In this document: piece after piece, positions 2,102 through 63,586 of the stretch | Layout of the letters: every line of letters begins with the position of its first letter | Position numbering within the stretch: position 1 is the first letter of the stretch | DNA from: Segetibacter aerophilus | GTDB taxonomy: Bacteria > Bacteroidota > Bacteroidia > Chitinophagales > Chitinophagaceae | Direction: 5' to 3' | Assembly (NCBI RefSeq): GCF_007991655.1 | Contig: NZ_BJYT01000007.1 | Location: 124,001-188,000 of the forward strand | DNA: 64,000 nt | Notes under the pieces: model-generated | Databases searched by the model: none | What the model saw: the letters and a program-made list of their open reading frames with translations, nothing else | What the model was told of the DNA's origin: nothing | Translations under genes and position numbers: made by a program

Positions 2102-2150
2102 TCCAACTGTAGCCTTTCATAGCGCCATCGTTGTGTCACTCACTTTTACT
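2102..2150 (-). repeat. dispersed covarying repeat, copy 1
   Basis: The core GTGACAC (minus strand) is at 2133-2139, preceded by AAAAGTGA and followed by AACGATG; a second half-site (GTTGGA) lies 18 bp further on. It sits between the sixA and nhaA genes. Confidence 0.75.
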
Positions 2151-2243
2151 GAATATCAATTACCACCCATTAAAGAAATTTTTCAAAATTTCATTGTTTT
2201 TCGCAAATAGCAGAAATAGTCCTAAAAGAACTTAAACCTTTAA

Positions 2244-3407
2244 ATGATCGATCGATTCTCCAATCTTTTCAAAAGCTTTTTCGACAGCGAGAAAGTTGCA
2301 GGGCTGCTACTGCTGTTTTGTACAATCATTTCCCTTTCGATAGCTAATTCGTCTTTTGGAGATTTTTATGTTGATTTCATGCATAGTAAGATTGATCTTT
2401 CCTTCGCAAATGGATCTCTTAATTATAGTGTAGAACAATGGGTGAACGACGGCCTTATGACAATCTTCTTTCTTATGGTAGGACTCGAGGTAGAAAGAGA
2501 AATATACGTAGGAGAATTGTCAGACATAAAAAAAGCCATCTTGCCGGTTGCGGCTGCTGTTGGGGGAATGCTGGTTCCTTCCCTGATACACTTCATACTA
2601 AACAACGGTACAACTACACAAAGTGGCTTCGCTATACCGATGGCTACTGATATCGCATTTGCTTTAGGTGTACTTGCACTGGCTGGCAATAAAGTGCCTA
2701 CTTCAGTAAAAGTTTTCCTTGCTGCACTTGCCATTATCGATGATATAGGTGCTATTGTGGTGATTGCTTTTTTCTATACCGCTACTATAACTTTTTCCTA
2801 CTTGGCTGTCGCATTAGCCATCTTTGGGTTGCTCCTTATTTTTAATAGAATGAAAGTCTTTAACCTCGCATTTTATTTATTGCCCGGGCTACTAATGTGG
2901 TATTGTTTTCTGCAATCAGGTGTTCACCCAACTTTATCGGGAGTGTTGCTTGCCTTCGCAATACCATTTCACAAAACGGATGAAAAAAACGTTTCGTTGC
3001 GACTACAGCATTTTTTACATAAGCCTGTTGCTATTGTTATCATCCCGATTTTCGCGTTGGTAAATACTGCCATCATTTTACCAAACAACTTTAGTCAAGC
3101 TATTTTAAATACAAACTCTGCCGGCATTATTGCAGGATTGTTTGTAGGTAAGGTGATAGGTATAGTTTTGTTTCCATACCTGCTGATAAAGTTTGCAAAA
3201 GCGAAACTGCAGAAGGGGATCAACTTTCAGTTATTAATCGGCATTGGGTTTCTGGGAGGTATCGGTTTTACAATGTCTATGTTTATCGGTAACCTTGCTT
3301 TTGATGATAGCAACACTATTATAAATTCTAAACTAAGTATCTTAATAGGATCTGCTTTGTCTGCTATAACCGGCCTGCTTATTTTAAGACGAAGTGCAAA
3401 AACCTAA
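2244..3407 (+). CDS. nhaA: Na+/H+ antiporter NhaA
   Basis: At 387 residues it is almost exactly the length of E. coli NhaA, with about 12 hydrophobic segments. The pair of adjacent aspartates in LAIIDDIGAIVVI (about residues 164-165) is the ion-binding DD pair of the family, and the preceding MATDIAFALG loop supplies the other conserved Asp. The protein should exchange protons for Na+ (or Li+) across the inner membrane for pH and sodium homeostasis. It stands alone, 170 bp after sixA with a dispersed repeat between them, and is followed by a terminator-like hairpin facing the convergent aminotransferase gene. Confidence 0.95.
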   Translation: MIDRFSNLFKSFFDSEKVAGLLLLFCTIISLSIANSSFGDFYVDFMHSKIDLSFANGSLNYSVEQWVNDGLMTIFFLMVGLEVEREIYVGELSDIKKAILPVAAAVGGMLVPSLIHFILNNGTTTQSGFAIPMATDIAFALGVLALAGNKVPTSVKVFLAALAIIDDIGAIVVIAFFYTATITFSYLAVALAIFGLLLIFNRMKVFNLAFYLLPGLLMWYCFLQSGVHPTLSGVLLAFAIPFHKTDEKNVSLRLQHFLHKPVAIVIIPIFALVNTAIILPNNFSQAILNTNSAGIIAGLFVGKVIGIVLFPYLLIKFAKAKLQKGINFQLLIGIGFLGGIGFTMSMFIGNLAFDDSNTIINSKLSILIGSALSAITGLLILRRSAKT

Positions 3408-3597
3408 AGGAATTTGTAGGACACGTGAGTTTATTCTTTTATAACTATTTAAGTTCATTTAATGCAAGTTTAATAGTGCACCCAAGGGGAGTAGGCTAGA
3501 TTTGTATTGCATTTAAAAAACAACTTCCTTTTCTACCTAACCTTAACTGGACTCTAAACCCTTATTTACTACCTAACTCTTTTAGAGCCCCGCTATT

Positions 3598-3627
3598 AAA
3601 ACCTTTCATTTGATGACGGGTTTTTTT
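3598..3627 (+). terminator. intrinsic terminator between convergent genes
   Basis: AAAACC (3598-3603) pairs with GGTTTT and TCAT (3606-3609) pairs with ATGA (3613-3616) around a three-base loop, with a small internal bulge. Seven T residues follow (3621-3627). It suits nhaA; the A-rich left arm could also serve the opposite strand. Confidence 0.6.
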
Positions 3628-3659
3628 GTTTCTAGACGTTTAAAAAATGAACGGTGAAA

Positions 3660-4835: not shown

Positions 4836-4872
4836 AAAAAAATTGAGGCTGCCACTTCCCAGTGACAGCCTC
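4836..4872 (-). terminator. strong intrinsic terminator of the 4902-6998 gene
   Basis: GAGGCTG (4845-4851) pairs with CAGCCTC (4866-4872), and CACT pairs with AGTG inside. On the minus strand the hairpin is followed by a seven-base T-tract (4842-4836) that runs straight into the ATG at 4835 of the next gene. Confidence 0.8.
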
Positions 4873-4901
4873 GTCCTATTAATCCGTACCCATAAAAAAC
4901 C

Positions 4902-6998: not shown

Positions 6999-7006
6999 GA
7001 GAAAAT

Positions 7007-7032
7007 TGGATATTGGATATAGGATATTGGAC
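7007..7032. repeat. short tandem GGATATT-type repeat
   Basis: TTGGATATTGGATATAGG is followed by ATATTGGA immediately upstream of the ATG at 6998, so it lies in the leader of the lipoprotein gene. It resembles low-complexity tandem runs common between Bacteroidota genes. Confidence 0.6.
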
Positions 7033-7359
7033 TTTAAAACCGCGTTACCGAAGCAACACTAATTAAACGCGGGCTGCGAAAGGAGATTGCAGGAAAATTT
7101 TGGTTAGCTCAATTCGGGTACGGTATAAGCCGATTGGAGTTAATATGGAGCTACCTATTATGGAAGAATTTGAAAAGCAACGAAAAATGATGCAAAGCTC
7201 AATATCAAAATCAAACGAAATCAATGTTGCTTATTTCGGAGGAAGAAACAACAAAGCCGCTATGAGAAATACAGTACAAGGGAGTGACACAACCAGGTAT
7301 GAAAGAAGATCAACTGCCGGTCAGACAAAAACATTCATTATGGAAGTGGCAAAAGAAAT
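7033..7359. other. intergenic stretch without a convincing gene
   Basis: This lies between the lipoprotein start and the tolC stop. It holds one dispersed repeat (7274-7321). An 87-codon open frame on the plus strand runs through the repeat, has no family resemblance and ends at the tolC stop, so I do not call it a gene. Confidence 0.6.
7274..7321 (+). repeat. dispersed covarying repeat, copy 2
   Basis: GTACAAG at 7274 is followed by GGA, the core GTGACAC (7284-7290) and AACCAGG, then the second half-site GCCGGT at 7316-7321. It lies between the lipoprotein gene and tolC. Confidence 0.75.
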
Positions 7360-8655: not shown

Positions 8656-8659
8656 CTGT

Positions 8660-11830: not shown

Positions 11831-11870
11831 AGTTTATCTCGCTGTTCGATTTATTAAAAATTATTTATTT

Positions 11871-11918
11871 GCCGTCTTTTGATCTATACTAGACATTGTT
11901 GCGTCGCACTCTTGTACG
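11871..11918 (-). repeat. dispersed covarying repeat, copy 3
   Basis: On the minus strand GTACAAG is followed by AGT and the core GCGACGC (11901-11907), then AACAATG and, 17 bp on, GACGGC. It lies between the adaptor gene and the RND gene of the efflux operon. Confidence 0.75.
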
Positions 11919-12038
11919 GTTTGTTCTTTAGTCAGGGAGTATACAAAAGCAACCGAAACTTTCTCTTAAGCAATAATTATTAGTCCTGGAAGAAATGATT
12001 TAACCAATTGTTCTATTCGTTATGATTACTGCTGTAAA

Positions 12039-13091: not shown

Positions 13092-13345
13092 TTGATAAAG
13101 TAGTATTGATTATAGAGCACTAAAGATAAAGCAGAAATAATAGGGTAACTGTTGAAAGAGTAAAAAGTTTGCACTCTTAAATGTGGGGCATGTTTTAATC
13201 GGTAAATGTTTGCTTTATTAAGGTAAAGACTTTTAAAGACGGGAGCTTGTGTATGAAAAATGGAATATAGAAAAACGAGCATTTTTCTCTTTAAAGTGTT
13301 GGTGCCTTCATCTCCAATGGCTTAACTTTTGAAACAGATCCGAAG

Positions 13346-14692: not shown

Positions 14693-14694
14693 GT

Positions 14695-14719
14695 GATTTT
14701 AGGGGTCTTTTCCTAAATC
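14695..14719. terminator. terminator-like hairpin between convergent genes
   Basis: GATTTTAGG (14695-14703) pairs with CCTAAATC (14712-14719) with one bulged T. There is no long T-tract, so the call is tentative; its position between two convergent stops supports it. Confidence 0.35.
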
Positions 14720-14722
14720 TAA

Positions 14723-15769: not shown

Positions 15770-16105
15770 TCGGCGAAGATAGCCCCGCAGCCAAGCTCAG
15801 ACCTTTTGCGTCAAAAATTATTTTTCTTGCAACAAAAGAGCTAGCTTTTTCATCTACTACGAGGTAAGTTTTAGCTATCGCAAAAGATAAGTGAAGGAGT
15901 AGAACTAACAGGAAATAAGGAAGGATTTTTTAAACCTGGAATGGTTAAGGCAGTCACAGAAATGTTAAGATTACTTAATAAAAATTAAGATGAAATTAAA
16001 TAAGTCCTTTTATTGAAATCTTATTGGTTTCATTCTTAGTTTTATAAAACGAAATCAGAACTAATAATATCTCCGCTTATTTCTCCGTTGTAAACAGATG
16101 TTTTT
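15770..16105. other. intergenic stretch, nothing recognised
   Basis: This 336-bp AT-rich gap lies between two divergent genes. I see no RNA gene, repeat copy or strong hairpin; it presumably carries both promoters. Confidence 0.5.
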
Positions 16106-17893: not shown

Positions 17894-18054
17894 ACCTACA
17901 TTTTAAAGAAGCACAAAAATACGACACGGCTCTCGACTGCCGTAACTTGTTTTGTCTCAGTTTCTTAAATTACAGCTAATTAAATTAGATGCGTGATAGA
18001 GTAAACAAGGATAAGTTTTGTAATTTGGATTTGCCTGACCAGAAATTAAACGAC

Positions 18055-18097
18055 AAAGTGAGTGACACAACGATTGCTAAATAGAAAAATAACCGAC
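18055..18097 (+). repeat. dispersed covarying repeat, copy 4, overlapping a gene start
   Basis: The core GTGACAC is at 18062-18068, preceded by AAAGTGA and followed by AACGATT; ACCGAC at 18092-18097 is the second half. It overlaps the 5' end of the protease frame. Confidence 0.65.
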
Positions 18098-19303
18098 TGC
18101 TCTCTAAAATTCTTATTGGTCTTATCCTTTACTGTTGCGATTGTTTTTCGTGGATTTGCGCAAGATGCAAGTGCTCCTAAAGCCACACTGATAACAAAAT
18201 TTCCTTTTACCACTCTTTCCGGGGGGATCATCATTGTAAAAGCCCTTTTGGATGAACATCCTGATACACTGAATTTTATCCTGGATACAGGCAGCGGAGG
18301 CATTTCCTTAGATTCTGCGATAGTTGAATATTTACACCTGGTTAAAACTCCCTCCGAAAGAATTCTCCGTGGCATAGCTATGATCAGGAAAATTATCTAT
18401 GTCCCGAACCGAACCTTACACCTGCCGAAGCTAGATATTGAACACCTCGATTTTCATATCAATGATTACACTTTGCTCACCAGTGTCTACGGGGTAAGGA
18501 TCGATGGAATAATAGGTTACAGCTTTTTTAGCAGGTTTATTGTAAAAGTGGATTATGACACCAATATGCTCGAAATCTACAGTCCCGGAAAGATAAAATA
18601 TCCTAGGGGCGGCATTATTTTAAAGCCAACGATCAACGGCATTCCTGTTTTTGATGCTACAATCACCGATGGCGTAACCAAAGCAAGCCGCTTCTATTTT
18701 GACTCAGGTGCGGGTCTTTGCCTGCTCATGTCCGACAATTTTGCTAATGACAGCAGTATTTTAGTCAAAGGAAAAAAAGTCTTGTTCACACAAGCGGAAG
18801 GCATTGGAGGTAAAAAGCCAATGAAACTGACTACCGTGAAAGAGATAAAAATCGGCCCATACAGATTTAAAAAAGTACCAGCGCATATTTTTGTCGACGA
18901 CTACAACGTCACTTCATACCCCACTTTGGGTGGCCTCATTGGCAACGATCTGCTTCGCCGTTTCAACCTTATCGTAAATTATGCTGACCATGAAATTCAT
19001 CTAAAACCCAACACTCATTTCCGCGAAACCTTTGATTATTCTTATACCGGTTTAGGGATGTATGATGTAAACGGGCAAATAATAATCGAAGACGTGATGG
19101 AGGGTTCGCCTGCTGCTAAAGCGGGTTTAAAGCCGGGAGATATCTTAGCCGGAATTAATACAGTACTTGCCGGCAATATCCAGAGCTATAAAAACATGCT
19201 GCAGGACGTGGGAACAAAACTGAAGATGCTCATTGTGAGAGACGGCGAGTTGTTTATTATCAATCTCAAGGTTCGAAGCTTTTTAGATAAAGATGTCCAA
19301 TAA
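18062..19303 (+). CDS. Exported aspartyl protease-like protein with PDZ domain
   Basis: The 413-residue product has a signal peptide ending near VFRGFAQ (residue 34). Two D-[ST]-G motifs, FILDTGSGG (Asp75) and FYFDSGAG (around residue 218), give a retropepsin-like duplicated aspartyl protease fold. IDGIIGYSFF and GGLIGNDLLRRF are the matching hydrophobic-Gly strands. A PDZ domain occupies the last 80 residues (GSPAAKAGLKPGDILAGIN). It is likely a periplasmic peptidase or peptide-binding protein. The GTG start at 18062 lies within the dispersed repeat; TTG at 18074 would give almost the same signal peptide and may be the true start. Confidence 0.82.
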   Translation: MTQRLLNRKITDCSLKFLLVLSFTVAIVFRGFAQDASAPKATLITKFPFTTLSGGIIIVKALLDEHPDTLNFILDTGSGGISLDSAIVEYLHLVKTPSERILRGIAMIRKIIYVPNRTLHLPKLDIEHLDFHINDYTLLTSVYGVRIDGIIGYSFFSRFIVKVDYDTNMLEIYSPGKIKYPRGGIILKPTINGIPVFDATITDGVTKASRFYFDSGAGLCLLMSDNFANDSSILVKGKKVLFTQAEGIGGKKPMKLTTVKEIKIGPYRFKKVPAHIFVDDYNVTSYPTLGGLIGNDLLRRFNLIVNYADHEIHLKPNTHFRETFDYSYTGLGMYDVNGQIIIEDVMEGSPAAKAGLKPGDILAGINTVLAGNIQSYKNMLQDVGTKLKMLIVRDGELFIINLKVRSFLDKDVQ

Positions 19304-19316: not shown

Positions 19317-19348
19317 CTTGCCTCAAAAAGCTGCAAGTAATTTTTTTT
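19317..19348 (+). terminator. possible terminator after the protease gene
   Basis: CTTGC (19317-19321) pairs with GCAAG (19333-19337), followed within three bases by eight T residues (19341-19348). The stem is short. Confidence 0.4.
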
Positions 19349-19351
19349 GTA

Positions 19352-19401
19352 GCAAACAATTGGATCCAAATTCAACATCGTTGTGTCACCCACTTGTACT
19401 T
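19352..19401 (-). repeat. dispersed covarying repeat, copy 5
   Basis: On the minus strand GTACAAG, TGG, core GTGACAC (19383-19389), AACGATG; second half GTTTGC. It lies between the protease and cupin genes. In plus orientation its CTTGTAC end sits 18 bp before TACTTTTA, a weak Bacteroidota-like promoter arrangement for the cupin gene. Confidence 0.75.
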
Positions 19402-19457
19402 TTTTTCTTTATGCTACTTTTAGAAATACACCTCAAAAACATTAAAAACGTATAGTT

Positions 19458-24134: not shown

Positions 24135-24283
24135 GCCTATAAAACGTCAATCGAATAAGTAAGATAAGGAGTCAAGCTTCTAACTTAAATGAAGCTTTCG
24201 ATATTAATCGGGCAAAAATGAAAAATCCGGATATTGTTGGAACTAAAGCTTAGTTAAGGAACTGTTGAAAATAGCAATGCTGC

Positions 24284-24332
24284 AAAAGTGAGTGACACAA
24301 CGAAGCTGATGAAAATTCAAATGTTGGCCAGC
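24284..24332 (+). repeat. dispersed covarying repeat, copy 6
   Basis: AAAAGTGA precedes the core GTGACAC (24292-24298), then AACGAAG; the second half GGCCAGC (24326-24332) is a few bases further away than in other copies. It lies between convergent genes. Confidence 0.65.
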
Positions 24333-24355
24333 AAAATTTACCACCTATAAAATCA

Positions 24356-31839: not shown

Positions 31840-31868
31840 CGGGCCTGTTCTCAGGTCCGGTATTTTTT
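31840..31868 (+). terminator. intrinsic terminator of the sigma-led operon
   Basis: CGGGCCTG (31840-31847) pairs over eight positions, one of them G-T, with CAGGTCCG (31852-31859) around a four-base loop. TATTTTTTT follows. Confidence 0.8.
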
Positions 31869-31874
31869 TATGGA

Positions 31875-31921
31875 GCCAGCTTTATAACTCGTACAAACAT
31901 TCTTGCGTCGCACACTTCGAC
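31875..31921 (-). repeat. dispersed covarying repeat, copy 7
   Basis: On the minus strand the core GCGACGC (31905-31911) is followed by AAGAATG and, 17 bp on, GCTGGC. The GTACAAG end is decayed to TCGAAG. It lies between convergent genes just after a terminator. Confidence 0.7.
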
Positions 31922-31961
31922 TGTTGTTGATAGCGGAGCACACTTGCGAGACAAACGGCAC

Positions 31962-32865: not shown

Positions 32866-32909
32866 CGAAATGCGACGCAACGATGATGCTATGAAAAACA
32901 AAAGCCGGT
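32866..32909 (+). repeat. dispersed covarying repeat, copy 8
   Basis: The core GCGACGC (32872-32878) is followed by AACGATG and, 18 bp on, GCCGGT (32904-32909) and an A-run. The GTACAAG end is decayed. It lies between DUF3891 and the GH95-like gene. Confidence 0.7.
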
Positions 32910-32923
32910 ACCAAAAAAATTAA

Positions 32924-35431
32924 TCATGGACGGAGCAAGATTACCTCGCCGGGAGTTGTTTTTAAAACTAACAAGGATTTACCAATTGCTCGTTTTCCTG
33001 CTGCAGTTACTACATCGCCATCAGTGCCCCACGGATTTATGATACGTAATTCATTGCCTTTTTCGCTGATGATTTTTACGCCTGTAACTTTTTCGTCCTG
33101 CTGGCTTGCGCTTACCAGAAAAGCTCCTGCCGCCCGGAGGTTATTGAATGTCGCATCTTTTTCCTTTGGCCAATTTGGAAAAAGCCTTATTAATCCATCG
33201 TAACCTTGCATGAGACATTCGTTGATTACTGCCGGCAGCGCAAAGTTTTCGAACCAAATGCCTGCATCAGCCATAAAAGTAAAGTTCGACTGGTCGGTGT
33301 ACCTGCCCCTTGTTTGCGAAACAAGATTGGCCGCCGTGCCGTTGGGAAGTAAGCAATAATTTACCTGTCGCTTAAACTGATCGAGATCGAGCAAGCCCAA
33401 TCTTGCTGCCTGCATGTTAAGGAAGACCAAATCGTTGCCGCCTTCATTTTGATGATTTCGGTAGGTATTTCTGAATTGTTGTAAAAGGTTTTTTTCACTT
33501 CCCAGCCCGCCGTCTTCCCCGGGAAAAACAGGGGAAAGCGACAAGGGAATATTGTACACAACATCATGATGTTCTTTTGGCGCAGACACGAATACTTCTC
33601 CAAATTCATCTGAAGTAGCGGTGGGATAATCGGGGTAATTGTTGAGAATATCAGTAATGTCAGACAGCAAAGGAGCCTCCTGTTCAGCAGTTTTTAATAC
33701 GGCCGTCGCTTGTTGAAACGCGTTAAAAATAAACCTGGTAAGGGCTAGGTCAAGTGAGCAATCATAGTTGTAATTGAAGCCCGGCGTAAGGCCATGCAGC
33801 TCGGGAGGCACCGTTGGAAAAATATGGTATTTGTCATCTTTCCACCGGTTGCCGCTATATGCGTCAGGTCTTTTCATGTACGCCACCAAAAATTGTGTTG
33901 CTGCTTTTATAGGTTCATACGCCCGCGCTCTTAAAAAGGTCGTATCTCCTGAGTAAGTGTAGTGCCACCAAAGCCCTTGCACCGCCCATGGGGTCTCGCT
34001 TATTTCCCATCCCCAATCAGGTATTGGAAAGGGATTCATAGACATTTGAACAGGATAAGCCGTGTGGGGAAAAGCAGCTCCGGGCAAATGATAGTACTCG
34101 TTTGCCCATCGCCGGCTCAAGGGCATAAGAAACTCCACCAGGTTTACATAGGGAAGGTTTTTCTCGAGGTGGTTACTTGAAAAGGTCAGCCAAAAAGGTT
34201 GTTGTATGTTATAGTTGAAATGATAATCGCCGTGCCATCGGCTACCTATAGTATTGTAGCTCCAGTTGGCAAAGAGGCCGGGAGATTGAACGCCATCTTT
34301 AACCGCACAATTGAAAAAGTAGAGGTTTCGGTACCACACTTCCTCAAGAAAATTATCGCCCAATTCGACAGATGACTTACTCCAATACCTTGACCATTCC
34401 CTTACGTTTTGCCGTAGTGTTGCGGTGAATAAATTGTGAGAAGGCTCAGTCTTGTCCGCAAGTTTTTGCGGTACGTTAGTGTCTCTACCTTCAGATAAAG
34501 ACACCATTGCAGAGAAAGTTCCAGTTGCGGAAACAGCGCTTTCGAGATCAGGCATCTCATCCAAACCACCGTTCACATTGATTTGTTTTATCTTCTTTAG
34601 CCGGGAGTTAACTCTAACGGCTAAAGAAAATGCCTTGTCTTCAGCGCTGGCCGCCACCTCTCTATTTTTACCAACTGCATCTGGTAAAATTTGTCGAAAC
34701 CCAAGCGTGCCGTCAGCAAGAGAATTAAGTGTTTCGTAATGAGGAAATTCGGCGGGCGTAGATGGATCAGGAAGGACTTTTATTCTTGTGAAAATGTTTG
34801 CTTCAGGTTTTCCGCCGGCATCTACCAGTTGCATTAGCAGCCTGTCTTTATTCATGTCTGTCATCAACTTAAGAAAAACTTTCTTTTTACCTGCTAACAG
34901 TCTTACCGTACAAACTCCATTTGAAATATCAAGTTCATGTCCCATGAGCTCTACTTTTCTCCTGTCAAATCCAAGCACGACCGAGCCGCAAGGGAATGGA
35001 CGGGGATAGGGTTTATTATAATTGTCAGACGCTGTCTTGTGGTATTCTTTGTACCATTTGTTTTGGGTAAGCTTAGCAATGGAAGTAGGTACTTTTTTCA
35101 GTTTGTCAAAAACGTAATTAAAATCCTTCAATTCTTCCCTGTGGTTCTCCGCAACCCGCACGTCCCACACATTGTTGTGACCAAAATAAAGCACAATGGC
35201 ATCGGGCCTTGTGGTCACTACAACTCCCAGCCCTCCGTTACCCAAAAGCGCTCCGGAAAAAAAATCAGGGGCGGGTTTATTACAAACAATAGAATGTCTT
35301 CTTGCCAGTTCTTTTGCTTCCGGCTTTCCTATCACAATTTCTTTGTAACCTATAAACGGCAGAGGTAATAGTAGTGCAGCAATAAGGCACGAGGTTCGTT
35401 TTGTATTTTTTGGGAAGAAAGTTATTGCCAT
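32924..35431 (-). CDS. GH95-like (alpha/alpha)6 glycoside hydrolase
   Basis: The 835-residue exported protein has an N-terminal signal (SCLIAALLLPLPFIG). Residues about 55-330 form a beta-rich N-terminal domain beginning GALLGNGGLGVVV, typical of clan GH-L enzymes of the GH95/GH65 type. The catalytic barrel follows, with WHGDYHFNYNIQQPFWL (about residue 405) corresponding to the WxxDYHxNxNxQ motif of GH95, and DWGWEISETPWAVQGLWWHYTYSGD further on. GH95 enzymes release alpha-L-fucose or alpha-L-galactose; this protein is divergent, so the substrate is open. No SusC/SusD pair is adjacent. It could contribute to plant or host polysaccharide use. Confidence 0.78.
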   Translation of the reverse strand: MAITFFPKNTKRTSCLIAALLLPLPFIGYKEIVIGKPEAKELARRHSIVCNKPAPDFFSGALLGNGGLGVVVTTRPDAIVLYFGHNNVWDVRVAENHREELKDFNYVFDKLKKVPTSIAKLTQNKWYKEYHKTASDNYNKPYPRPFPCGSVVLGFDRRKVELMGHELDISNGVCTVRLLAGKKKVFLKLMTDMNKDRLLMQLVDAGGKPEANIFTRIKVLPDPSTPAEFPHYETLNSLADGTLGFRQILPDAVGKNREVAASAEDKAFSLAVRVNSRLKKIKQINVNGGLDEMPDLESAVSATGTFSAMVSLSEGRDTNVPQKLADKTEPSHNLFTATLRQNVREWSRYWSKSSVELGDNFLEEVWYRNLYFFNCAVKDGVQSPGLFANWSYNTIGSRWHGDYHFNYNIQQPFWLTFSSNHLEKNLPYVNLVEFLMPLSRRWANEYYHLPGAAFPHTAYPVQMSMNPFPIPDWGWEISETPWAVQGLWWHYTYSGDTTFLRARAYEPIKAATQFLVAYMKRPDAYSGNRWKDDKYHIFPTVPPELHGLTPGFNYNYDCSLDLALTRFIFNAFQQATAVLKTAEQEAPLLSDITDILNNYPDYPTATSDEFGEVFVSAPKEHHDVVYNIPLSLSPVFPGEDGGLGSEKNLLQQFRNTYRNHQNEGGNDLVFLNMQAARLGLLDLDQFKRQVNYCLLPNGTAANLVSQTRGRYTDQSNFTFMADAGIWFENFALPAVINECLMQGYDGLIRLFPNWPKEKDATFNNLRAAGAFLVSASQQDEKVTGVKIISEKGNELRIINPWGTDGDVVTAAGKRAIGKSLLVLKTTPGEVILLRP

Positions 35432-42829: not shown

Positions 42830-42893
42830 CCAGCAACTCGAACTCATGTCGTTCAAAAAACACTTTCAACTTCCGTCGAGCAGAGCTAAAAAA

Positions 42894-42940
42894 GTACAAG
42901 GGAGTGACACAACGATGTCAAATTCAAAGGTAAAGCCGGC
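42894..42940 (+). repeat. dispersed covarying repeat, copy 9
   Basis: GTACAAG, GGA, core GTGACAC (42904-42910), AACGATG, 17 bp, GCCGGC (42935-42940), then a seven-A run. It is the best example of the full bipartite form. Confidence 0.8.
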
Positions 42941-43009
42941 AAAAAAATTCCTACAATAAGCCAGAGCAATCAATAATACCAGTACAATAACCTTTTAAAA
43001 GTATCGGGG

Positions 43010-48418: not shown

Positions 48419-48464
48419 CACAAGGGAGTAAAACAACCATTATTTCCAGTTTTAGAATGCAAGC
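48419..48464 (+). repeat. decayed copy of the dispersed repeat, copy 10
   Basis: CACAAGGGAGTAAAACAACC matches copy 2 at most positions but has lost the GTGACAC core; GCAAGC at 48459-48464 stands where the second half-site is expected. Confidence 0.45.
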
Positions 48465-50280: not shown

Positions 50281-50291
50281 TAATGTTGGTT

Positions 50292-50340
50292 GCCAGCGGA
50301 AGGCTATCTATTACGCATTGTTGTGTCACACACTTGTACT
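50292..50340 (-). repeat. dispersed covarying repeat, copy 11
   Basis: On the minus strand GTACAAG, TGT, core GTGACAC (50323-50329), AACAATG, 18 bp, GCTGGC. It lies between the two ABC exporter genes. Confidence 0.75.
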
Positions 50341-50376
50341 TGCAGCAATTCTACTCAACTAAATTGACATTCACTT

Positions 50377-52140: not shown

Positions 52141-52159
52141 AAGTGTTCCATACAAAGCG

Positions 52160-53377: not shown

Positions 53378-53609
53378 GTTGGGTTTCTTCCTCGGGCGGT
53401 AAGGCGCAAAGTTAGTCGTCAAAGCCCGTCCGAAGTCTAAATTATAATATCGATGTTCGCAAGCTTTGAATGTTTTGCTAAACAAAAGTAAAAGATTGAA
53501 CTATAGCCAAAAAGGGCACATTATAGTTCATAGCTTCCCACCGCAGAGGTCTCACATAATTTCTATTATAATAATTCGTTATCGATTCAAATACTCTGTT
53601 TTCAGCTAC

Positions 53610-56710: not shown

Positions 56711-56736
56711 GGTAATAATTATTGAAACAAGATGTA

Positions 56737-57201
56737 TTAATCGCCTACATATTTCTGTTCAGAATATGGGGCAGGATAAGTAAGAGACAGCAAATATTCC
56801 CAGTCTAATTTTTCCTTTAAATCAAGCATATATTGTTGCGAGATACCTGGGTAGTTGGATAGGAAAAACAGGCTGATAATTTTATAATACAAGCCAACGA
56901 TGTTTTCCATAGGTTTATCGTTTGCATAAATATCATCAAGAGTAATTGCAACAGGATAATATTTAATCAATTCCTCTTCAACTAAAGACGCCTCGTAAAT
57001 GTTGACACCCTGCGGACTGTTGTCGTCCTTCTTAAACAGCATTATAGAAAGCAAAACTTTCCACTTTTCGTTTAGTATAATATTAAAAGGCTGTAGAATA
57101 TAATTGTGAACAAATTCCTCGAAATATTCTTCCACTTTGTAAGAATAAGGCGGACGATTTGCTTCACTACACACCTTCTTTATCAAAAACTGTTTTATCA
57201 A
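56737..57201 (-). CDS. Unknown 154-residue protein inside the arginine cluster
   Basis: The protein is acidic to neutral, rich in Tyr, Ile and Leu, with no signal peptide and no TM segment (KVEEYFEEFVHNYILQPFNIILNEKWKVLLSIMLF). I do not recognise a family. Its ATG overlaps the argE stop by four bases (ATGA), so translation is coupled, and argH follows 26 bp later. The placement suggests a role in or regulation of arginine synthesis, but that is inference; it could equally be a passenger gene. No active-site-like cluster stands out. Confidence 0.65.
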   Translation of the reverse strand: MIKQFLIKKVCSEANRPPYSYKVEEYFEEFVHNYILQPFNIILNEKWKVLLSIMLFKKDDNSPQGVNIYEASLVEEELIKYYPVAITLDDIYANDKPMENIVGLYYKIISLFFLSNYPGISQQYMLDLKEKLDWEYLLSLTYPAPYSEQKYVGD

Positions 57202-58289
57202 AGTATTACCTTATTTAGCATGGAAATATAACCTTGAATTCCTTCCTCTATTTCATTTAAAAATATAAATTCATCCGCTGTATGACTTCTTGCACTATCG
57301 CCCGGACCACACTTTAAGGCGGGGAAAGGCATTAACGCTTTATCGCTACTTGTGGGTGATCCATAACAAGTTTTTCCAAGACTCATTCCTGCCTGAACAA
57401 GAGGGTGGTTAATGTTAATTCCTGTAGCTCTAAGTCGCATGCTTCTTGGTGCCACCTGCGATGATACGTTTTGTCGAATGATTTCAAATATTTCTTCATG
57501 GCTATACACTTCTGTAATTCTGACATCAACAACAAAGTTGCAGCTGGAAGGAACCATGTTATGAGCCTTGTTTTCTGTGTTGATTACAGTTACAGACATC
57601 TTAACCGGCCCTAGCCACTCGCTTATTTTCGGGTACCGATAGGTGCTAAACCATTCAATATCCTTTACAGCTTTATAAATTGCGTTGTCTCCTTCTTCCC
57701 TTGCGGCATGACTAGCTTTCCCTTGCGCCACACAGTCAAGTACCATCAAACCTTTTTCAGCAATTGCTAACTGCATCTTTGTCGGCTCACCAACAATAGC
57801 ACAATCAATCTCCTTTCCCTGTAACGTTTCTTCAAATTTGTCGTTTCCAAGCAACAACTCAATTCCTCCATAACCACTGATTTCTTCCTCAGCAGTTGCC
57901 GCAAGAATTAGATTGTATTTTAAATCTTCTGTATTATGAAAATGAAGGAATGTAGCAATAAGACTTACAAGGCACCCGCCCGCATCGTTACTTCCCAAAC
58001 CAGATAATTTCCCATCCTTAACAATAGGCGTAAACGGATCGTTTGTATAATGAGGGCTTGGTTTTACCGTGTCGTGATGTGAGTTTAAAAGTATAGTTGG
58101 TTTTGCTACATCGAAGTGTTTATTTACTGCCCATACATTGTTTAGAAGTCTATTATTCTGAATTCCATTTTCAGTAAGAAAGTCTTCTATTATTGTAGCA
58201 GTTCCATCTTCATATTTTGAGTAAGATGCAGTTGAAATTAACTGGTGCAGAAGTTTTACTGCCTTTCTATATAGTAAGTCCGCTGCCAT
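57198..58289 (-). CDS. argE: M20-family N-acylcitrulline/N-acylornithine deacylase (ArgE-like)
   Basis: This is a 363-residue M20 zinc peptidase-fold enzyme. NSHHDTV (about residue 68) holds the first metal His and Asp, GSNDAGGC the bridging Asp, AATAEEEISGYGG the catalytic Glu pair and EPT the next ligand. In Bacteroidota and Xanthomonas, where carbamoylation is done on acylated ornithine, this enzyme removes the acyl group from acylcitrulline. It would therefore act between the transcarbamylase and argininosuccinate synthase. It overlaps argB by one base and the unknown gene by four. Confidence 0.88.
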   Translation of the reverse strand: MAADLLYRKAVKLLHQLISTASYSKYEDGTATIIEDFLTENGIQNNRLLNNVWAVNKHFDVAKPTILLNSHHDTVKPSPHYTNDPFTPIVKDGKLSGLGSNDAGGCLVSLIATFLHFHNTEDLKYNLILAATAEEEISGYGGIELLLGNDKFEETLQGKEIDCAIVGEPTKMQLAIAEKGLMVLDCVAQGKASHAAREEGDNAIYKAVKDIEWFSTYRYPKISEWLGPVKMSVTVINTENKAHNMVPSSCNFVVDVRITEVYSHEEIFEIIRQNVSSQVAPRSMRLRATGININHPLVQAGMSLGKTCYGSPTSSDKALMPFPALKCGPGDSARSHTADEFIFLNEIEEGIQGYISMLNKVIL

Positions 58290-59080
58290 TAATTTATAAA
58301 AAGAGTTCCGCTGGTTTTGCCTGTTGTATTTTGAATAAGATCGTTTGCATCCCCTACCAGAACTTCTTTTACTCCGGCATCAATGGCTGCAAAAGCATTG
58401 TCAATTTTTGGAAGGATACCGGCGAACAATTTCTGTTCACTCAATAATTGCTGATACGTTTTCTTATTAATTATTTTAATGACTGATTCGTCATCGTCTA
58501 CATTTTCTAACACGCCTTTTTTCTCAAAACAATAAATTAATCTTACGTCATACATATAAGACAAAGCAACAGCTAAAGATGAAGCCACTGTATCTGCATT
58601 TGTATTTAAGATGTGACCTTGTCCATCATGAGTAAGCGGTGCAAAGGCAGGAACTAATCCACTATCAAGCAATAACTTTAAACTCTCAACCTTCAACTTT
58701 GAACTTTCCACATCTCCCACCCAGCCAAAATCAACTTCTTTAACGGGACGTTTAGTAGCAGGAATAATGTTACCATCAGCGCCGGTTAAACCAATTGCAT
58801 TGCAACCTAAGGATTGCAATTGCGCAACAATTTTTTTATTCACCAACCCGCCATATACCATTGTTACAAGATCTATGGTTGCATCGTCTGTCACTCGCCT
58901 TCCGTTGATATATTTTGATTCGATACCCAGTTGCTCCCCCATTTTTGTTGCAATCTTTCCACCTCCGTGAATCAAAATCTTGTTTCCTTCAATTGCAGCA
59001 AAATCCTTTAAAAAAGATTGTAACCCGGCTTCGCTGTCTATCACATTTCCACCAATCTTAATAACGAATAGTTCTTGCAT
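58289..59080 (-). CDS. argB: N-acylglutamate kinase
   Basis: The 263-residue product is an amino acid kinase: VIKIGGNVIDS at the N-terminus, LIHGGGKIATKMGEQLGI, and GADGNIIPATKRPVKEVDFGWVGDV are the usual blocks, and NTNADTVASSLAVAL is the ATP-binding part. It phosphorylates N-acyl-glutamate (acetyl, or succinyl in this pathway variant). After VGDV, residues about 129-143 (ESSKLKVESLKLLL) are coded by a repeat-like run of AAAGTT-type units and appear about two residues longer than the usual helix here; see findings. It is followed by argE with a one-base overlap. Confidence 0.93.
   Translation of the reverse strand: MQELFVIKIGGNVIDSEAGLQSFLKDFAAIEGNKILIHGGGKIATKMGEQLGIESKYINGRRVTDDATIDLVTMVYGGLVNKKIVAQLQSLGCNAIGLTGADGNIIPATKRPVKEVDFGWVGDVESSKLKVESLKLLLDSGLVPAFAPLTHDGQGHILNTNADTVASSLAVALSYMYDVRLIYCFEKKGVLENVDDDESVIKIINKKTYQQLLSEQKLFAGILPKIDNAFAAIDAGVKEVLVGDANDLIQNTTGKTSGTLFIN
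58676..58709 (-). repeat. AAAGTTGAA-type tandem repeat inside argB
   Basis: On the minus strand the run GAAAGTTCAAAGTTGAAGG is followed by TTGAGAGTTTAAAGTT, read in frame as part of ArgB. The same kind of low-complexity run is usually intergenic in Bacteroidota. Confidence 0.6.
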
Positions 59081-59114
59081 TATTTGTTTTCAATATGTCG
59101 AAGAATAGTCAAAT

Positions 59115-59162
59115 GTACAAGTGTGCGACGCAACAATGTGTAATAGTAGTAAATGAGTCGGC
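59115..59162 (+). repeat. dispersed covarying repeat, copy 12
   Basis: GTACAAG, TGT, core GCGACGC (59125-59131), AACAATG, 18 bp, GTCGGC. It lies between argF' and argB. Confidence 0.8.
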
Positions 59163-59211
59163 TCTAAAAATATTCTTTAAACCAGTCACCATTTTGTTTA
59201 ATCAAGCAGCT

Positions 59212-60192
59212 TTAAATCCCTCCCTTCGGGGAGGTTAGAAGGGTACTAATTACTGCCTGTGCAGCCCACACCCTGTTTGATGCTTCTTGTGTCACCAGGC
59301 TATTCGGACCGTCTAATATTTCGTCGCTCAATTCTACATTTCTTCTTACGGGGAGGCAGTGCATTACTTTAGCGTTGTTGGTTTGTTGCAACTTGTCGTT
59401 GGTCAACATCCATGATGTGTCACTGCTATGCATCTTCCCGTAATCATTATAGGCGCTCCAATTTTTTACATAAACAAAATCCGCATCCTTGAGCGCTTCA
59501 TCCTGGTCATGAGTGATGGTAGCGCCTTTTGTAAACTTCTCTGCCAGCTCATAACCCTCCGGGTGGGTGATTACAAAATCGGCTTCACCCCAGGCATTTA
59601 TCCATTCAGCAAACGAGTTGGAAACACATTGCGGAAGTGGCTTAATATGCGGAGCCCATGTAAGAACAATCTTAGGTTTACCCCCAGCCCGTAAAGGGGA
59701 GTTAAGCAAATATTCTTTAATCGTGATAATATCCGTCAAACTTTGCAGCGGATGAAGCGTAGCACTTTCGAGGCTGATAACCGGAACACCCGCATACTTA
59801 ATAAACTGGCTGATGTACATCTCGCTGTAATCTTCTTCACGGTTTTTAAGCGAGGGAAAAGTACGGATACACAGAATGTCGAAGTACTTGCCAAGAACGG
59901 GGGCAGCATCTTTTACGTGTTCGACAGTGGTGCCGTTCATAATGGCGCCTTCCTCAAACTCGAGTGCCCAACCTTCTTTGTCAACGTTAAAAACGATCGC
60001 TTCCATTCCAAGTTGTTGTGCAGCTACCTGCGTACTTAATCTTGTGCGCAAACTTGGATTTAGAAACAAAAGACCAATTCTTTTATTTGCGCCAAGTGCC
60101 TTATCCTTAAACGGATCTGCCTTGTACTCCAACGCTTTTTTGACCAAAGCGTTTATATCACTGACATCAGAAACGGAAATGAAATTTTTCAA
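59212..60192 (-). CDS. argF': N-succinylornithine (acylornithine) carbamoyltransferase
   Basis: This 326-residue transcarbamylase of the acylornithine branch has the carbamoyl phosphate loop as NPSLRTRLSTQ, not the STRT form of ordinary OTCase. HPLQSLTDI and TWAPHIKPLPQ are also typical, and MHCLPVRRNVELSDEIL is the C-terminal substrate loop. The residue that separates acetyl- from succinylornithine enzymes is Val90 in NGTTVEHV, matching neither Glu (acetyl) nor Pro (Bacteroides succinyl), but hydrophobic as in succinyl users. An in-frame G-rich repeat codes the NSPLRAGGK loop (about 168-176), and the last codons (LLTSPKGGI) lie in a second repeat. Dispersed repeats flank the gene. Confidence 0.93.
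   Translation of the reverse strand: MKNFISVSDVSDINALVKKALEYKADPFKDKALGANKRIGLLFLNPSLRTRLSTQVAAQQLGMEAIVFNVDKEGWALEFEEGAIMNGTTVEHVKDAAPVLGKYFDILCIRTFPSLKNREEDYSEMYISQFIKYAGVPVISLESATLHPLQSLTDIITIKEYLLNSPLRAGGKPKIVLTWAPHIKPLPQCVSNSFAEWINAWGEADFVITHPEGYELAEKFTKGATITHDQDEALKDADFVYVKNWSAYNDYGKMHSSDTSWMLTNDKLQQTNNAKVMHCLPVRRNVELSDEILDGPNSLVTQEASNRVWAAQAVISTLLTSPKGGI
59217..59237 (-). repeat. G-rich palindrome at the 3' end of argF'
   Basis: On the minus strand CCTCCCCGAAGGGAGGG codes the last residues of ArgF' (TSPKGG) and forms a short palindrome (CTCCC/GGGAG). Confidence 0.6.
59680..59702 (-). repeat. G-rich palindromic repeat inside argF'
   Basis: On the minus strand CTCCCCTTTACGGGC runs on into TGGGGGT, read as SPLRAGG. 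A near-identical unit is present in argC at 62955-62982. Confidence 0.65.
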
Positions 60193-60212
60193 CTTTTATT
60201 TTTATTTAGGTA

Positions 60213-60260
60213 GCCAATTGTAGTTTTCCAATGATGCATTCTTGCGTCGCACTCTTGTAC
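60213..60260 (-). repeat. dispersed covarying repeat, copy 13
   Basis: On the minus strand GTACAAG, AGT, core GCGACGC (60244-60250), AAGAATG, 18 bp, ATTGGC. It lies between argD and argF'. Confidence 0.75.
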
Positions 60261-60334
60261 TTTACATCTTTTGATGGGCTTTTCAACGTTATGGCAAAAA
60301 CGAATTTTACTGCTAAAAAGATTGCTTTTAAAAT

Positions 60335-61510
60335 TTATACCGTTACTGCTCGTTCACTTTCTTTTTTAGCACCGGTTAGTGAAGCAATCTCTGCTTCAAG
60401 TGCTTCTAAAAATTCACTAGCCTGGTCTTTAGTTAATGCCAAAGATGGAAGCAATCGTATAACATTCGGCTTCGCCTCACCGGTAAAAACGTGCTGCTTA
60501 TAGAGCAGGTTTTTCTTTAGGTCTTTTAACTCTTCGGGCACATCAAAGCCTATCATTAAGCCTCGTCCGCGTACGTTTTTAATTTCAGTAATTGCAGCTA
60601 AACGATCTAATAAATAGCTACCAACCTTTTGAGCATTTTCAATTAGGTTCTCTTCTTCCATCACTTCAAGCACGGCAAGGGCAGCAGCGCAGGCAAGCTG
60701 GTTACCACCAAAAGTAGTTCCAAGCATTCCATGTTTTGGAGCAATGTGAGGCGCAATTAAAATTCCGCCAATTGGAAAACCGTTGCCCATTCCTTTAGCC
60801 ATCGTATAAACATCTGCACTTACTCGTCCGTAATCATGAGCGAAGAATTGTCCACTTCTTCCGTAACCATCTTGCACGCTATCAGCGATATAAACAGCAT
60901 TATATTGATTGCACAAGGAACGGATCTTTTGAAGGAAGTTTTCTGTAGCCGGTATAATTCCACCAACACCCTGGATAGCCTCAATTATGACAGAAGATAT
61001 TTCGTCACCTCTTTGTGCGAAACAATCTTCCAACGCTTTCTCATCGTTATAAGGAAGAAAAATAACGTTCTCATTTTCGTTAACGGGAGCCACAATAGCA
61101 GGATTATCTGTAACTGCAACAGCCAGCGATGTTCGGCCATGAAAAGACTTACTAAAGGCGATTATTTTCTTTTTGCCGTTGTAAAAAGAAGCAAGCTTTA
61201 ATGCATTTTCATTTGCCTCCGCACCACTACTTATCAGGAACAACTGGTAGTCTTCTTTACCACTTAGCTTACCCAGTTTTTCAGCAAGTTGTTGCTGCAC
61301 AGGGATTTTTACGGAGTTAGAATAAAAAGCAATCTTGTTCAATTGCTCTTCAATTCGCAACACCCAATGAGGATGAGTATGGCCAATACTGATAACAGCA
61401 TGACCGCCATACATATCAAGGTATTTTGTTCCCTGGTCATCCCAAACATAAGAGCCTTTAGCCTTAGTAATGGTGATGTTGTTAAGTGGGTAAACGTCGA
61501 AGAGTTTCAT
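60335..61510 (-). CDS. argD: Acylornithine aminotransferase
   Basis: This 391-residue class III aminotransferase shows SSGAEANENALKLA as the PLP phosphate-binding segment, SFHGRT, EAIQGVGGIIP, and the Schiff-base Lys239 in TMAKGMGNGFPIGG. FGGNQLACAAALAVLEVM completes the set. It converts acylglutamate semialdehyde to acylornithine. The ADEVQ motif reads ADSVQ here: Asp210, which binds the PLP ring, is kept, but the next residue is Ser211 and not Glu. A four-helix cassette is inserted between this gene and argC. Confidence 0.94.
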   Translation of the reverse strand: MKLFDVYPLNNITITKAKGSYVWDDQGTKYLDMYGGHAVISIGHTHPHWVLRIEEQLNKIAFYSNSVKIPVQQQLAEKLGKLSGKEDYQLFLISSGAEANENALKLASFYNGKKKIIAFSKSFHGRTSLAVAVTDNPAIVAPVNENENVIFLPYNDEKALEDCFAQRGDEISSVIIEAIQGVGGIIPATENFLQKIRSLCNQYNAVYIADSVQDGYGRSGQFFAHDYGRVSADVYTMAKGMGNGFPIGGILIAPHIAPKHGMLGTTFGGNQLACAAALAVLEVMEEENLIENAQKVGSYLLDRLAAITEIKNVRGRGLMIGFDVPEELKDLKKNLLYKQHVFTGEAKPNVIRLLPSLALTKDQASEFLEALEAEIASLTGAKKESERAVTV

Positions 61511-61513
61511 GGG

Positions 61514-61546
61514 AGTTTTAAGTTGTGAGTTATAAGTTATAAGTCA
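61514..61546 (+). repeat. AAGTTATAAGT repeat, left flank of the four-helix cassette
   Basis: AGTTTTAAGTTGTGAG then TTATAAGTTATAAGT lies just upstream of the argD start. A similar run in inverted orientation lies at 61936-61967. Confidence 0.65.
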
Positions 61547-61632
61547 GGTTTAGGTTGAAGTATTAGGATAAGGGTTTGAAGGTTTATCTTGAACTTTTCC
61601 TATTAATGAAATAAGCATTCCTTTTACGTCAT

Positions 61633-61935
61633 TTATTGGGTGAATAGAATATCAAAGTTTTTTTGCTTCAGATAGCCCCGGTCTTTAGAAAGAATTAGAA
61701 AATATTCGGCTTCGTTTGAAGATCCGAGGGCAATATTTAAGAAGTTGGCGAAGTCGCTTTGGGAATTCTTTCCACAGCCTTCAGCAATATTTGCAGGAAT
61801 TGAAGAAGAGGATCTTCTGATTTGATTGGTTAAGCTATAAATTTCCTCCTTTGGAAAACCTTTAGTAACCTCATACACCCTCAGAGTAAATTGATGAGCT
61901 TTATCCCAAACTTTCAAATCTTTATAGTTCTGCAT
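61633..61935 (-). pseudogene. Four-helix bundle (S23/IVP-type) protein gene with frameshifted 3' end
   Basis: The first 100 codons give MQNYKDLKVWDKAHQFTLRV..., with IRRSSSSIPANIAEGCGK and SSNEAEYFLILSKDRGYL: the four-helix bundle family related to proteins coded within 23S rRNA intervening sequences. The frame stops at FDILFTQ, short of the usual fourth helix. The missing end is present in another frame: shifting one base just before the stop gives HPINDVKGMLISLIGKV, ending at 61550. A lost base (or read error) near the CTATTCACC site explains this. The gene and its remnant fill the space between argC and argD and are flanked by inverted AAGTTATAAGT-type repeats. Confidence 0.75.
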
Positions 61936-61967
61936 AACTTATCACTTACAACTTACAACTTATCACT
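61936..61967 (-). repeat. AAGTTGTAAGT repeat, right flank of the four-helix cassette
   Basis: On the minus strand AGTGATAAGTTGTAAG then TTGTAAGTGATAAGTT leads directly into the four-helix start codon, mirroring the run at 61514-61546. The end of the argC stop lies at its edge. Confidence 0.65.
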
Positions 61968-63046
61968 CAAAATCCCCCTCCCTTCAGTCTCAATCCCGCC
62001 GTCTCTTCCAGCCCAAACATCAAATTCATATTTTGAACTGCCTGCCCGCTTGCGCCTTTTAGCAGGTTGTCTATTGCTGAGTGTACGACAATTTTTTCTT
62101 CTGCTTTTTCGATATGAATTAAGCACTTGTTTGTGTTGACTACTTGCTTCAGATCGATCATTGTCTCACTTACATGAGTGAAAGGCTCATGCTGGTAAAA
62201 GTCTTTATATAATTGGTTCACCTCGTTCAATGAAAGATTGCAATCGATAGTAGAACTGATATAAATACCTCTTGGAAAATCACCTCGCCAGGGAACGAAG
62301 TATAGTCCACTTTTTGTTTCTGATGAAGTTGAAAAAGATCCCTGCAACTGTTGTAACGATTGAGTAATCTCCTTTAAATGCTGGTGAGTTAAAGTTTTGT
62401 AGGCCGAGATATTATTTGCTCTCCAACTAAAATGTGTTGTTGCTGATAAACTTTGCCCGGCACCAGTAGAGCCGGTAATGCCGGTTGTATAGATCTCTTT
62501 TAGTAGTCCGGCCTTTGCCAACGGCAATAATCCTAACTGAATTGCAGAAGCAAAGCAACCTGGATTAGCAATGTTCTCTGCCGACTTAATTTGTTCTTTA
62601 TTTAGCTCCGGAAGGCCATAAACAAAACTTCTCTCTTCAAAGTTTGCGTTAGCAGCAACCCTGAAGTCCTGACTTAGGTCTATCAATTTTACTCCCTTTA
62701 GAGATGGGGCTTCTTCGGCTAGAAATTTCTTCGCATCTCCATGACCAACGCACAAAAACAAAACATCAATATCGTTGGAGAGTTCTGATGAAAAGGCTAT
62801 ATCAGTCTCACCCAATAGGTCAGCATGAACTGAAGCAACAGGCTTGCCGGCGTTACTTTTACTGTTTATGAAAGAGATTTGAACATTTGGATGATTGATC
62901 AAAATGCGGATTAATTCTCCACCGGTATAGCCGGCTCCACCAATTATTCCAACCCGAAGCCCCCCCGCCCCTAAAGGGGAGCTTGAGTTTGCACCCGACA
63001 AAGGGGAGTATAAAAAGTTGTTTAGATGATCTCTTCTTAAAAACAT
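61967..63046 (-). CDS. argC: N-acyl-gamma-glutamyl-phosphate reductase
   Basis: The 359-residue product has the dinucleotide-binding GIIGGAGYTGGELIRIL near residue 34, the active-site Cys in IANPGCFASAIQLGLLPL, and TGITGSTGAGQSLSATTHFSWRANN, all typical of ArgC. It reduces acylglutamyl phosphate to the semialdehyde. The N-terminus is about 30 residues longer than usual: YSPLSGANSSSPLGAGGLR is coded by two G-rich repeats. An unseen internal start is possible, but no ATG lies between the repeats and the Rossmann motif. The C-terminal LKGGGF also reads through a G-rich run. Confidence 0.93.
   Translation of the reverse strand: MFLRRDHLNNFLYSPLSGANSSSPLGAGGLRVGIIGGAGYTGGELIRILINHPNVQISFINSKSNAGKPVASVHADLLGETDIAFSSELSNDIDVLFLCVGHGDAKKFLAEEAPSLKGVKLIDLSQDFRVAANANFEERSFVYGLPELNKEQIKSAENIANPGCFASAIQLGLLPLAKAGLLKEIYTTGITGSTGAGQSLSATTHFSWRANNISAYKTLTHQHLKEITQSLQQLQGSFSTSSETKSGLYFVPWRGDFPRGIYISSTIDCNLSLNEVNQLYKDFYQHEPFTHVSETMIDLKQVVNTNKCLIHIEKAEEKIVVHSAIDNLLKGASGQAVQNMNLMFGLEETAGLRLKGGGF
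62955..63010 (-). repeat. two G-rich palindromic repeats at the argC 5' end
   Basis: On the minus strand CTCCCCTTTGTCGGG is followed by CTCCCCTTTAGGGGC and a run of seven Gs. They are read in frame before the Rossmann motif of ArgC. The second closely matches the unit inside argF'. Confidence 0.65.
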
Positions 63047-63112
63047 ATTAGTTGATTGTTAACAATGGTCTTAGAAAACTTCTGCTTTCTATTTTTAGCC
63101 GCGGTTACCCTT

Positions 63113-63487
63113 CTATACCAGGTTATGGCGATCGCTGCTGGTAGAGGGTTGAGAGATAACAAGGAACTCTAGTGCGCCTTCGTCTTTATTCATTATTCTG
63201 TGTCGTCGACCTGCTTCAAGGTGCAATCCTTCTCCCTCGTGTACAATCACGATTACTTCGTCTACTTCGAAAACTGCCCTGCCTTTTAGTATGTAGAAAA
63301 ATTGCTGTGATTGCTTGTGATAGTGTAAAATCTCTTCAGCGCCATGGGGCATCTTCTCATGTTTTATACTCAGGCTGTCGTTGTTCAATAAGTTCCAGGC
63401 TTCACAATTTTTACCCCATACATATTTGGTCGCGTTTGAAGTTGAAACGACTGCAGGAGGAGGGTTTGTTTGAATGTTTTTTAACAC
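63113..63487 (-). CDS. Cupin-domain protein in the arginine cluster
   Basis: The 124-residue single cupin carries EEILHYHKQSQQFFYILKGRAVFEVDE as the first motif (two metal His) and GEGLHLEAGRRHRIMNKDE as the second. It is cytoplasmic and probably binds a metal and a small ligand. It lies between argG and argC in the same direction, 66 bp before argC, so it is probably co-expressed. A role in arginine metabolism is possible but not shown by the sequence. A dispersed repeat separates it from argG. Confidence 0.8.
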   Translation of the reverse strand: MLKNIQTNPPPAVVSTSNATKYVWGKNCEAWNLLNNDSLSIKHEKMPHGAEEILHYHKQSQQFFYILKGRAVFEVDEVIVIVHEGEGLHLEAGRRHRIMNKDEGALEFLVISQPSTSSDRHNLV

Positions 63488-63537
63488 TAAAAACGTTTTT
63501 GACTAAAGTGAAAGAGTAGCTGAAAAGATTGATTTAC

Positions 63538-63586
63538 GTACAAGAGTGCGACGCAACCGAAGCTTGATAGTACCACTAAGGCGGGC
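63538..63586 (+). repeat. dispersed covarying repeat, copy 14
   Basis: GTACAAG, AGT, core GCGACGC (63548-63554), AACCGAAG, 18 bp, GCGGGC. It lies between argG and the cupin gene. Confidence 0.8.

Follow-up and report, generated by a model that had tools for sequence, protein, structure and literature searches.

A 64 kb stretch of the 5.89 Mb genome of Segetibacter aerophilus (the home genome; the stretch, G000:C7:124001-188000, is here called the window) carries 13 copies of a repeat whose core reads either GTGACAC (A-type) or GCGACGC (C-type). This raises the question of what kind of element it is, and what keeps the two variable core positions in step. The answer we favor, with a probability of about one half, is a hairpin-free, non-autonomous mobile intergenic repeat that resembles repetitive extragenic palindromes (REPs) and bacterial interspersed mosaic elements (BIMEs), its conserved head being a putative site for a dimeric DNA-binding protein. 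Close neighbors are inverted relative to each other, a finding that goes beyond an earlier note on this stretch, from which the full length of the element, its head-facing doublets and the alternation of copies are absent.

Searches with a 24-mer, allowing up to three mismatches, gave 11 matches in the window where 0.01 were expected, and a 14-mer with up to two mismatches gave 13 where 3.4 were expected; 12 of these 13 are copies listed earlier, the other (23352) is not, and the copy at 63548 was missed. A profile search recovered 13 copies, seven with GTGACAC cores, six with GCGACGC and none mixed, the same division as had been reported. The profiles were trained on the sequences searched, and the top score in the reversed control was 6.8 bits against a cut-off of 12 bits. 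A fourteenth copy had been claimed at 48419, but this position is absent from the 21 profile matches of the window at E<100 and is indistinguishable there from chance. The consensus given earlier described a real repeat but too short a one: aligned copies extend past the 24-bp head on both sides, to a length of about 80 bp, and run from an AT-rich upstream box through the head (GTACAAG-NGN-GYGACRC-AAC) to a second box, a GCYGG motif (the GCCGG tail) and an A-run. The two boxes resemble a direct repeat with a spacing of about 43 bp. The consensus is sharper in genome G070, where, judged by eye from the alignment columns and rows, it is about TTTGCTGCATAGNATTNCC, GTACAAGWGTGCGACGCAAG, TAAAGC, CAATAGNATTNC, TTTGCCGGGCTAATAAAA.

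The home genome has 193 exact 24-mers (reversed control, 0), 578 matches of a 15-mer core, and 369 of an 18-mer left open at both core positions. With respect to open reading frames (ORFs), which here and below are greedy calls made for this analysis, the core lies outside them in 117 of the 130 home copies above 18 bits. Across ten genomes of the genus the number of core copies runs from 4 (G196; control, 1) to 1,271 (G201), a range that fits a mobile repeat, and in G070 the core occurs 1,733 times. An exact copy was found in 40 of 195 genomes of the family, representing 26 of 101 genera, and in a class-wide draw of 395 genomes the counts outside the family were 0–3, comparable to the reversed control.

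The element is not a hairpin. In 405 copies the longest perfect stem averages 4.2–4.4 bp, against 4.4 bp after shuffling, and perfect stems of at least 8 bp occur in three of them; there is no hairpin excess. Folding of the 13 window copies as single-stranded DNA gave z-scores of -1.1 to 1.4, and the 87 aligned G070 copies have no consensus base pairs. The earlier note had dismissed an RNA stem on the grounds that its loop would be a single base. This was the wrong test, as a three-base loop closed by a Y-R pair is conceivable, but the lack of hairpin excess upholds the conclusion itself.

Orientation of neighboring copies

Orientation was scored in 844 kb of the home genome, containing 140 copies above 12 bits, and at the relatives' loci L034-L155, which were chosen, among the matches listed, for carrying an exact copy (one genome may supply several). 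In the home sample all 14 neighbors less than 1 kb apart and all 28 at 1–3 kb are inverted, 42 of 42 together, while beyond 3 kb 49 of 85 are inverted and 36 direct. The corresponding inverted and direct counts are 55 and 3, 53 and 10, and 27 and 10 in the relatives, and 30 and 0, 31 and 8, and 20 and 12 in G070, where three head types were counted and 81 of 101 neighbors are inverted overall. Along a contiguous 560 kb of the home genome, alternation is modest: 53 of 80 neighbors alternate at a cut-off of 12 bits and 34 of 62 when it is raised to 25 bits, with no order among second neighbors (42/79). Taken with the distance-binned counts, this means that the inverted order is strong between nearby copies and weak between distant ones. 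The third head type of G070, CCGAGCGTGGCAAG, has 10 copies in 280 kb of that genome. In L276-L289 (e.g., C12 9711 and C34 35812) it mostly obeys the same orientation order, and it is often paired with a C-type copy within about 150 bp.

Pairs closer than 1 kb mostly face each other with their heads (30/30 in G070, 49/58 in the relatives and 10/14 in the home genome). The tail lies nearer to genes than the head does, at a median of 52 versus 105 bp in the home genome and 50 versus 122 bp in the relatives, which would account for doublets whose heads face each other inside a single intergenic space, though not for an inverted order across genes. Local inverted duplication is rejected as the origin of the order, as near neighbors are not extra similar, and so is the loss of direct repeats through deletion: direct pairs whose members are not adjacent do occur at 1–3 kb (3 in the home sample, 25 in the relatives), so adjacency matters and not distance alone.

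When two neighbors in G070 point the same way, the weak copies found between them have the missing orientation in 13 of 15 cases (p 0.007), and in 9 of 10 at a higher cut-off (p 0.02). The same comparison gave 10 of 18 in the home genome, which is at noise level, and 3 of 5 in the relatives, and lends no support either way. A simulated alternating array with about half of its members lost or unseen at random fits the data roughly but not exactly, predicting 2.5–20% direct pairs at 0.3–3 kb, where 0 of 33 were seen, and 8–39% at 3–5 kb, where 13 of 27 were seen.

Core pair and orthologous sites

Of 107 home heads, 103 have matched bases (T with A, or C with G) at positions 11 and 15, and so do 229 of the 230 heads from relatives; these counts omit copies above 12 bits in which the head pattern was not found (33 of 140 in the home genome, 50 of 280 in relatives). 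The four unmatched home cores comprise three mixed forms and one other. Among the first 100 of the 369 matches listed for the open 18-mer, four were unmatched by eye; by our own estimate, independent positions would leave about half unmatched. Mixed cores are thus rare genome-wide, and the many mixed cores that the earlier note had named as a refutation are not seen. Position 9 varies together with the core pair, with A accompanying T..A and T accompanying C..G, while its dyad partner, position 17, hardly varies; in G070 one tail position is tied to the pair as well. These linkages support the existence of two sub-families, one of the two possibilities raised earlier.

The other, a constraint on the dyad, is likewise supported by changes at orthologous sites (copies are numbered as in Table 1). 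Copy 12 is C-type in the home genome, G198, G197 and G172, and A-type in G200, where positions 9, 11 and 15 are all changed and position 7 is the same. The same block of three differs between L043 and L089, whose orthology is weaker because L089 holds a second copy in the same space. In none of 19 ortholog comparisons, spread over 11 loci, did position 11 or 15 change alone; position 9 did so once, in copy 5. Block switching of this kind would follow from selection for a matched dyad or from short gene conversion.

The presence of copies 11 to 13 varies with the species. Copy 11 is present in the home genome, G198, G197 and, weakly (16.6 bits), G200; only short gaps mark its site in G172 and G201, and there is no copy in G196, G199, G098 or G195. 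Copy 12 is shared by the home genome, G198, G197, G172 and G200, is absent from its site in G196, G199, G098 and G195, and is represented in G201 by a tails-facing pair, the second member of which is oriented like copy 12. Copy 13 is found in the home genome, G198, G172, G200 and G199, with no copy in G196, G098 and G195, and the contigs of G197 and G201 stop short of the site. Wherever they are present these three copies keep their orientation, and G172, which has copy 12 without copy 11, shows that the two occur independently. Several other syntenic places hold a copy in one genome only.

Nature of the repeat

In the favored reading, each copy would be an oriented half-unit of about 80 bp, made up of AT-rich box, 24-bp head, second box, GC tail and A-run. 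The head, with its dyad core, would most likely be bound by a dimeric protein that reads the half-sites GYG and CRC alike, and such a protein would keep the core pair matched. Copies would insert between genes, either alone or as head-facing pairs, and would then be inherited in place, the head being kept while the remainder decays. We infer mobility, the protein, and an orientation order arising from the pairing of half-units.

Several observations weigh against this reading. Inverted near neighbors are no more alike than random copies, so the doublets were not amplified as units, and at L058/L171 copies lie in opposite orientations within the same intergenic space. Six comparisons for target-site duplication gave no consistent signal, five having p values of 0.12–0.67 and one, the doublets of relatives, p 0.04 uncorrected. 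Mutual comparison, rather than a domain search, of 204 ORFs lying between copies (126 intervals of 0.4–3 kb, sampled from part of each genome) revealed no widely recurring family, and no protein partner of the head came to light. The head is 91% identical in the 19 ortholog comparisons, a value inflated by the choice of pairs, which were picked by hand and required detection of both members (those left out include copy 11 of the home genome and G200, L094/L170 and L083/L155). The other parts are less alike: box 1 is 59% identical, box 2 65% and the tail 70%, with the upstream flank at 54% and the downstream one, often already coding sequence, at 72%; we estimate that a neutral 24-mer at 55% identity would reach at least 19 matches about once in a hundred. 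Heads kept in this way at old sites are unexpected for dead mobile DNA, and function or gene conversion is needed.

Conserved heads at orthologous places are what would be expected of a host site that organizes the chromosome, either a boundary or a DNA-wrapping site working in inverted pairs around genes and so giving alternation. The gene-scale order of the home copies at 1–3 kb, the weak copies of opposite orientation in G070, and the GC-rich boxes of the G070 columns, which stand about 30–33 bp apart with AT-rich DNA between, all agree with it. We nevertheless hold such a site to be unlikely, given that copy number varies about 300-fold within the genus, that 75 of the 101 sampled genera of the family have no exact copy, that home copies show no bias towards transcription-unit borders (the genes on either side are co-directional for 77 of 117 intergenic copies, against a background of 275/449), and that the home order is weak beyond 3 kb. 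More doubtful still is a boundary element that is directional and bound by protein, and whose copies would have to alternate, with genes in segments delimited by inverted sites and selection on the dyad for matched alleles (GTG/CAC or GCG/CGC). An improbable explanation is a classical REP or REPIN (REP doublet forming a hairpin) family moved by a REP-associated tyrosine transposase (RAYT, a Y1 HUH transposase). Inverted dimers with rare head-tail dimers are REP traits (PMC3733652), and the home genome has three Y1_Tnp matches, but there is no palindrome, and just one of the three loci, L031, has a copy nearby, a weak one. The co-occurring RAYT suggested in the earlier note proved not to be required when 195 genomes of the family were searched: Y1_Tnp is found in 143 and an exact copy of the repeat in 40, while copy-rich G172 (38 exact copies) has no Y1_Tnp and none is listed for G141 (122 exact copies).

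The large number of cores in G070, the near restriction to one family and the several head types might instead suggest a DNA uptake sequence that biased transformation has spread, with the head types as its dialects. DNA uptake sequences (DUS) and uptake signal sequences (USS) do have high copy numbers and lineage-specific dialects, but the known ones are shorter than this repeat, which further differs from them in its intergenic placement, its discrete presence or absence at sites and an orientation order that uptake leaves unexplained; this origin is quite improbable. Very little likelihood attaches to the copies being the inverted ends of gene-carrying transposons. Inverted pairs do bracket one or a few genes, and two synteny breaks lie on the tail side of copies (window 19372, copy 5, against L062; 42951-43037, copy 9, against G198), with other G198 breakpoints having no copy. 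The bracketed ORFs, however, are mostly unrelated, with 17 similar pairs among the 204 and ordinary-looking genes by eye; tails point inwards around one gene (aspS-like by eye) in G070, heads around its counterpart of 90% identity in L152; and copies 11 and 12, which flank OTCace, occur independently. Together these observations largely refute the idea. A structured RNA element is the least credible proposal. The core pair covaries, and RNA folding energies are 0.5–2.1 kcal/mol below those of simple shuffles, but stems no longer than shuffled ones, the lack of consensus pairs, the lack of sense bias (43 copies antisense to genes, 34 sense) and the lack of any Rfam match at gathering score in the window largely refute it; at five loci Rfam gave one weak, unrelated match.

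The mobile REP/BIME-like repeat that we favor shares with REPs and REPINs its intergenic position, its high copy number and its inverted dimers with few head-tail pairs. For REP dimers, PMC3733652 reports inverted arrangements, few head-tail pairs and spacers that are mostly 20–100 bp long. The present repeat differs from the REPs, BIMEs and REPINs of the GTAG super-family in having neither a palindromic stem nor a GTAG foot, in its length of about 80 bp with conserved head and boxes, and in not requiring a RAYT; its inverted order, which REPs might share, extends to the kilobase scale. Another parallel is the CGTC-tagged repeats of five phyla, including Bacteroidetes, for which PMC3733652 reports mostly inverted dimers and seemingly no dedicated transposase. 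The complement of the C-type core contains CGTC and that of the A-type TGTC, both of which are allowed there, but those repeats have stems of 8–9 bp with loops mostly of 4–5 bases, unlike the copies described here. No description of the repeat was found among the literature matches listed, and its sequence strings were found in no paper. A hairpin-free repeat in many genera of one family thus keeps the REP dimer rules without a palindrome or a required transposase, and the origin of the rules may lie elsewhere than in those two features. The matched-allele core and the gene-scale inverted order offer direct ways into the problem, through a protein that could be isolated and a rule that could be violated.

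Copies in the window and further observations

Table 1. The 13 copies of the repeat in the window (window coordinates).
Copy	Position	Strand	Core	Head or core position	Surroundings
1	2086..2172	-	GTGACAC	head 2126-2149	between ORFs 1565-2074 and 2244-3407
2	7256..7337	+	GTGACAC	head 7274-7297	tail 23 bp from OEP efflux gene; L070 has a copy at the same place, same orientation
3	11856..11935	-	GCGACGC	head 11894-11917	between ACR_tran and HlyD genes; L070 has a copy at the same place
4	18032..18115	+	GTGACAC	core 18062	
5	19337..19417	-	GTGACAC	head 19376-19399	L062 synteny begins inside head
6	24262..24342	+	GTGACAC	head 24282-24305	
7	31862..31932	-	GCGACGC	head 31898-31921	
8	32871..32924	+	GCGACGC	core 32872	degenerate head start
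9	42884..42951	+	GTGACAC	head 42894-42917	G198 synteny breaks past tail
10	50282..50349	-	GTGACAC	head 50316-50339	tail 2 bp past ORF end
11	59094..59178	+	GCGACGC	head 59115-59138	between AA_kinase (argB-like) and OTCace (argF'-like) genes
12	60202..60282	-	GCGACGC	head 60237-60260	between OTCace and Aminotran_3 genes
13	63517..63600	+	GCGACGC	head 63538-63561	

Copy 4 had been described as overlapping a gene start, and it does so if the GTG start of that gene is correct, which may be mis-called. Copies 11 and 12 are housed in an arginine-biosynthesis-like cluster (57198-63046; Peptidase_M20, AA_kinase, OTCace, Aminotran_3 and Semialdhyde_dh) that keeps its gene order in the genus relatives compared, up to the ends of their contigs.

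With one copy (window 59090-59185) as the query, a plasmid search gave no match and a phage search a single 32-base match (E 0.9). Eight viral contigs match a 20-base pattern, and by eye only L269, an IMG/VR contig that is perhaps host chromosome or prophage, has element-like surroundings, with three copies at 1030, 6080 and 9592. In a genome of another family (G446, 71% complete), two C-type cores lie head to head, 120 bp apart (C129:4239-4373); they look real and could reflect either spread or contamination. The single exact copy of G073 (L035) lies between ORFs that resemble, by eye, atpA and atpH.

A second, distinct repeat is present in the home genome, with none listed from the window. 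It has the look of a miniature inverted-repeat transposable element (MITE), its ends, GTTCTTGCA, lying on opposite strands about 107 bp apart, and it occurs at L157 4271-4378, L158 4946-5054, L164 8144-8252, L167 827-933, and L174 7353-7461 and 11518-11625.

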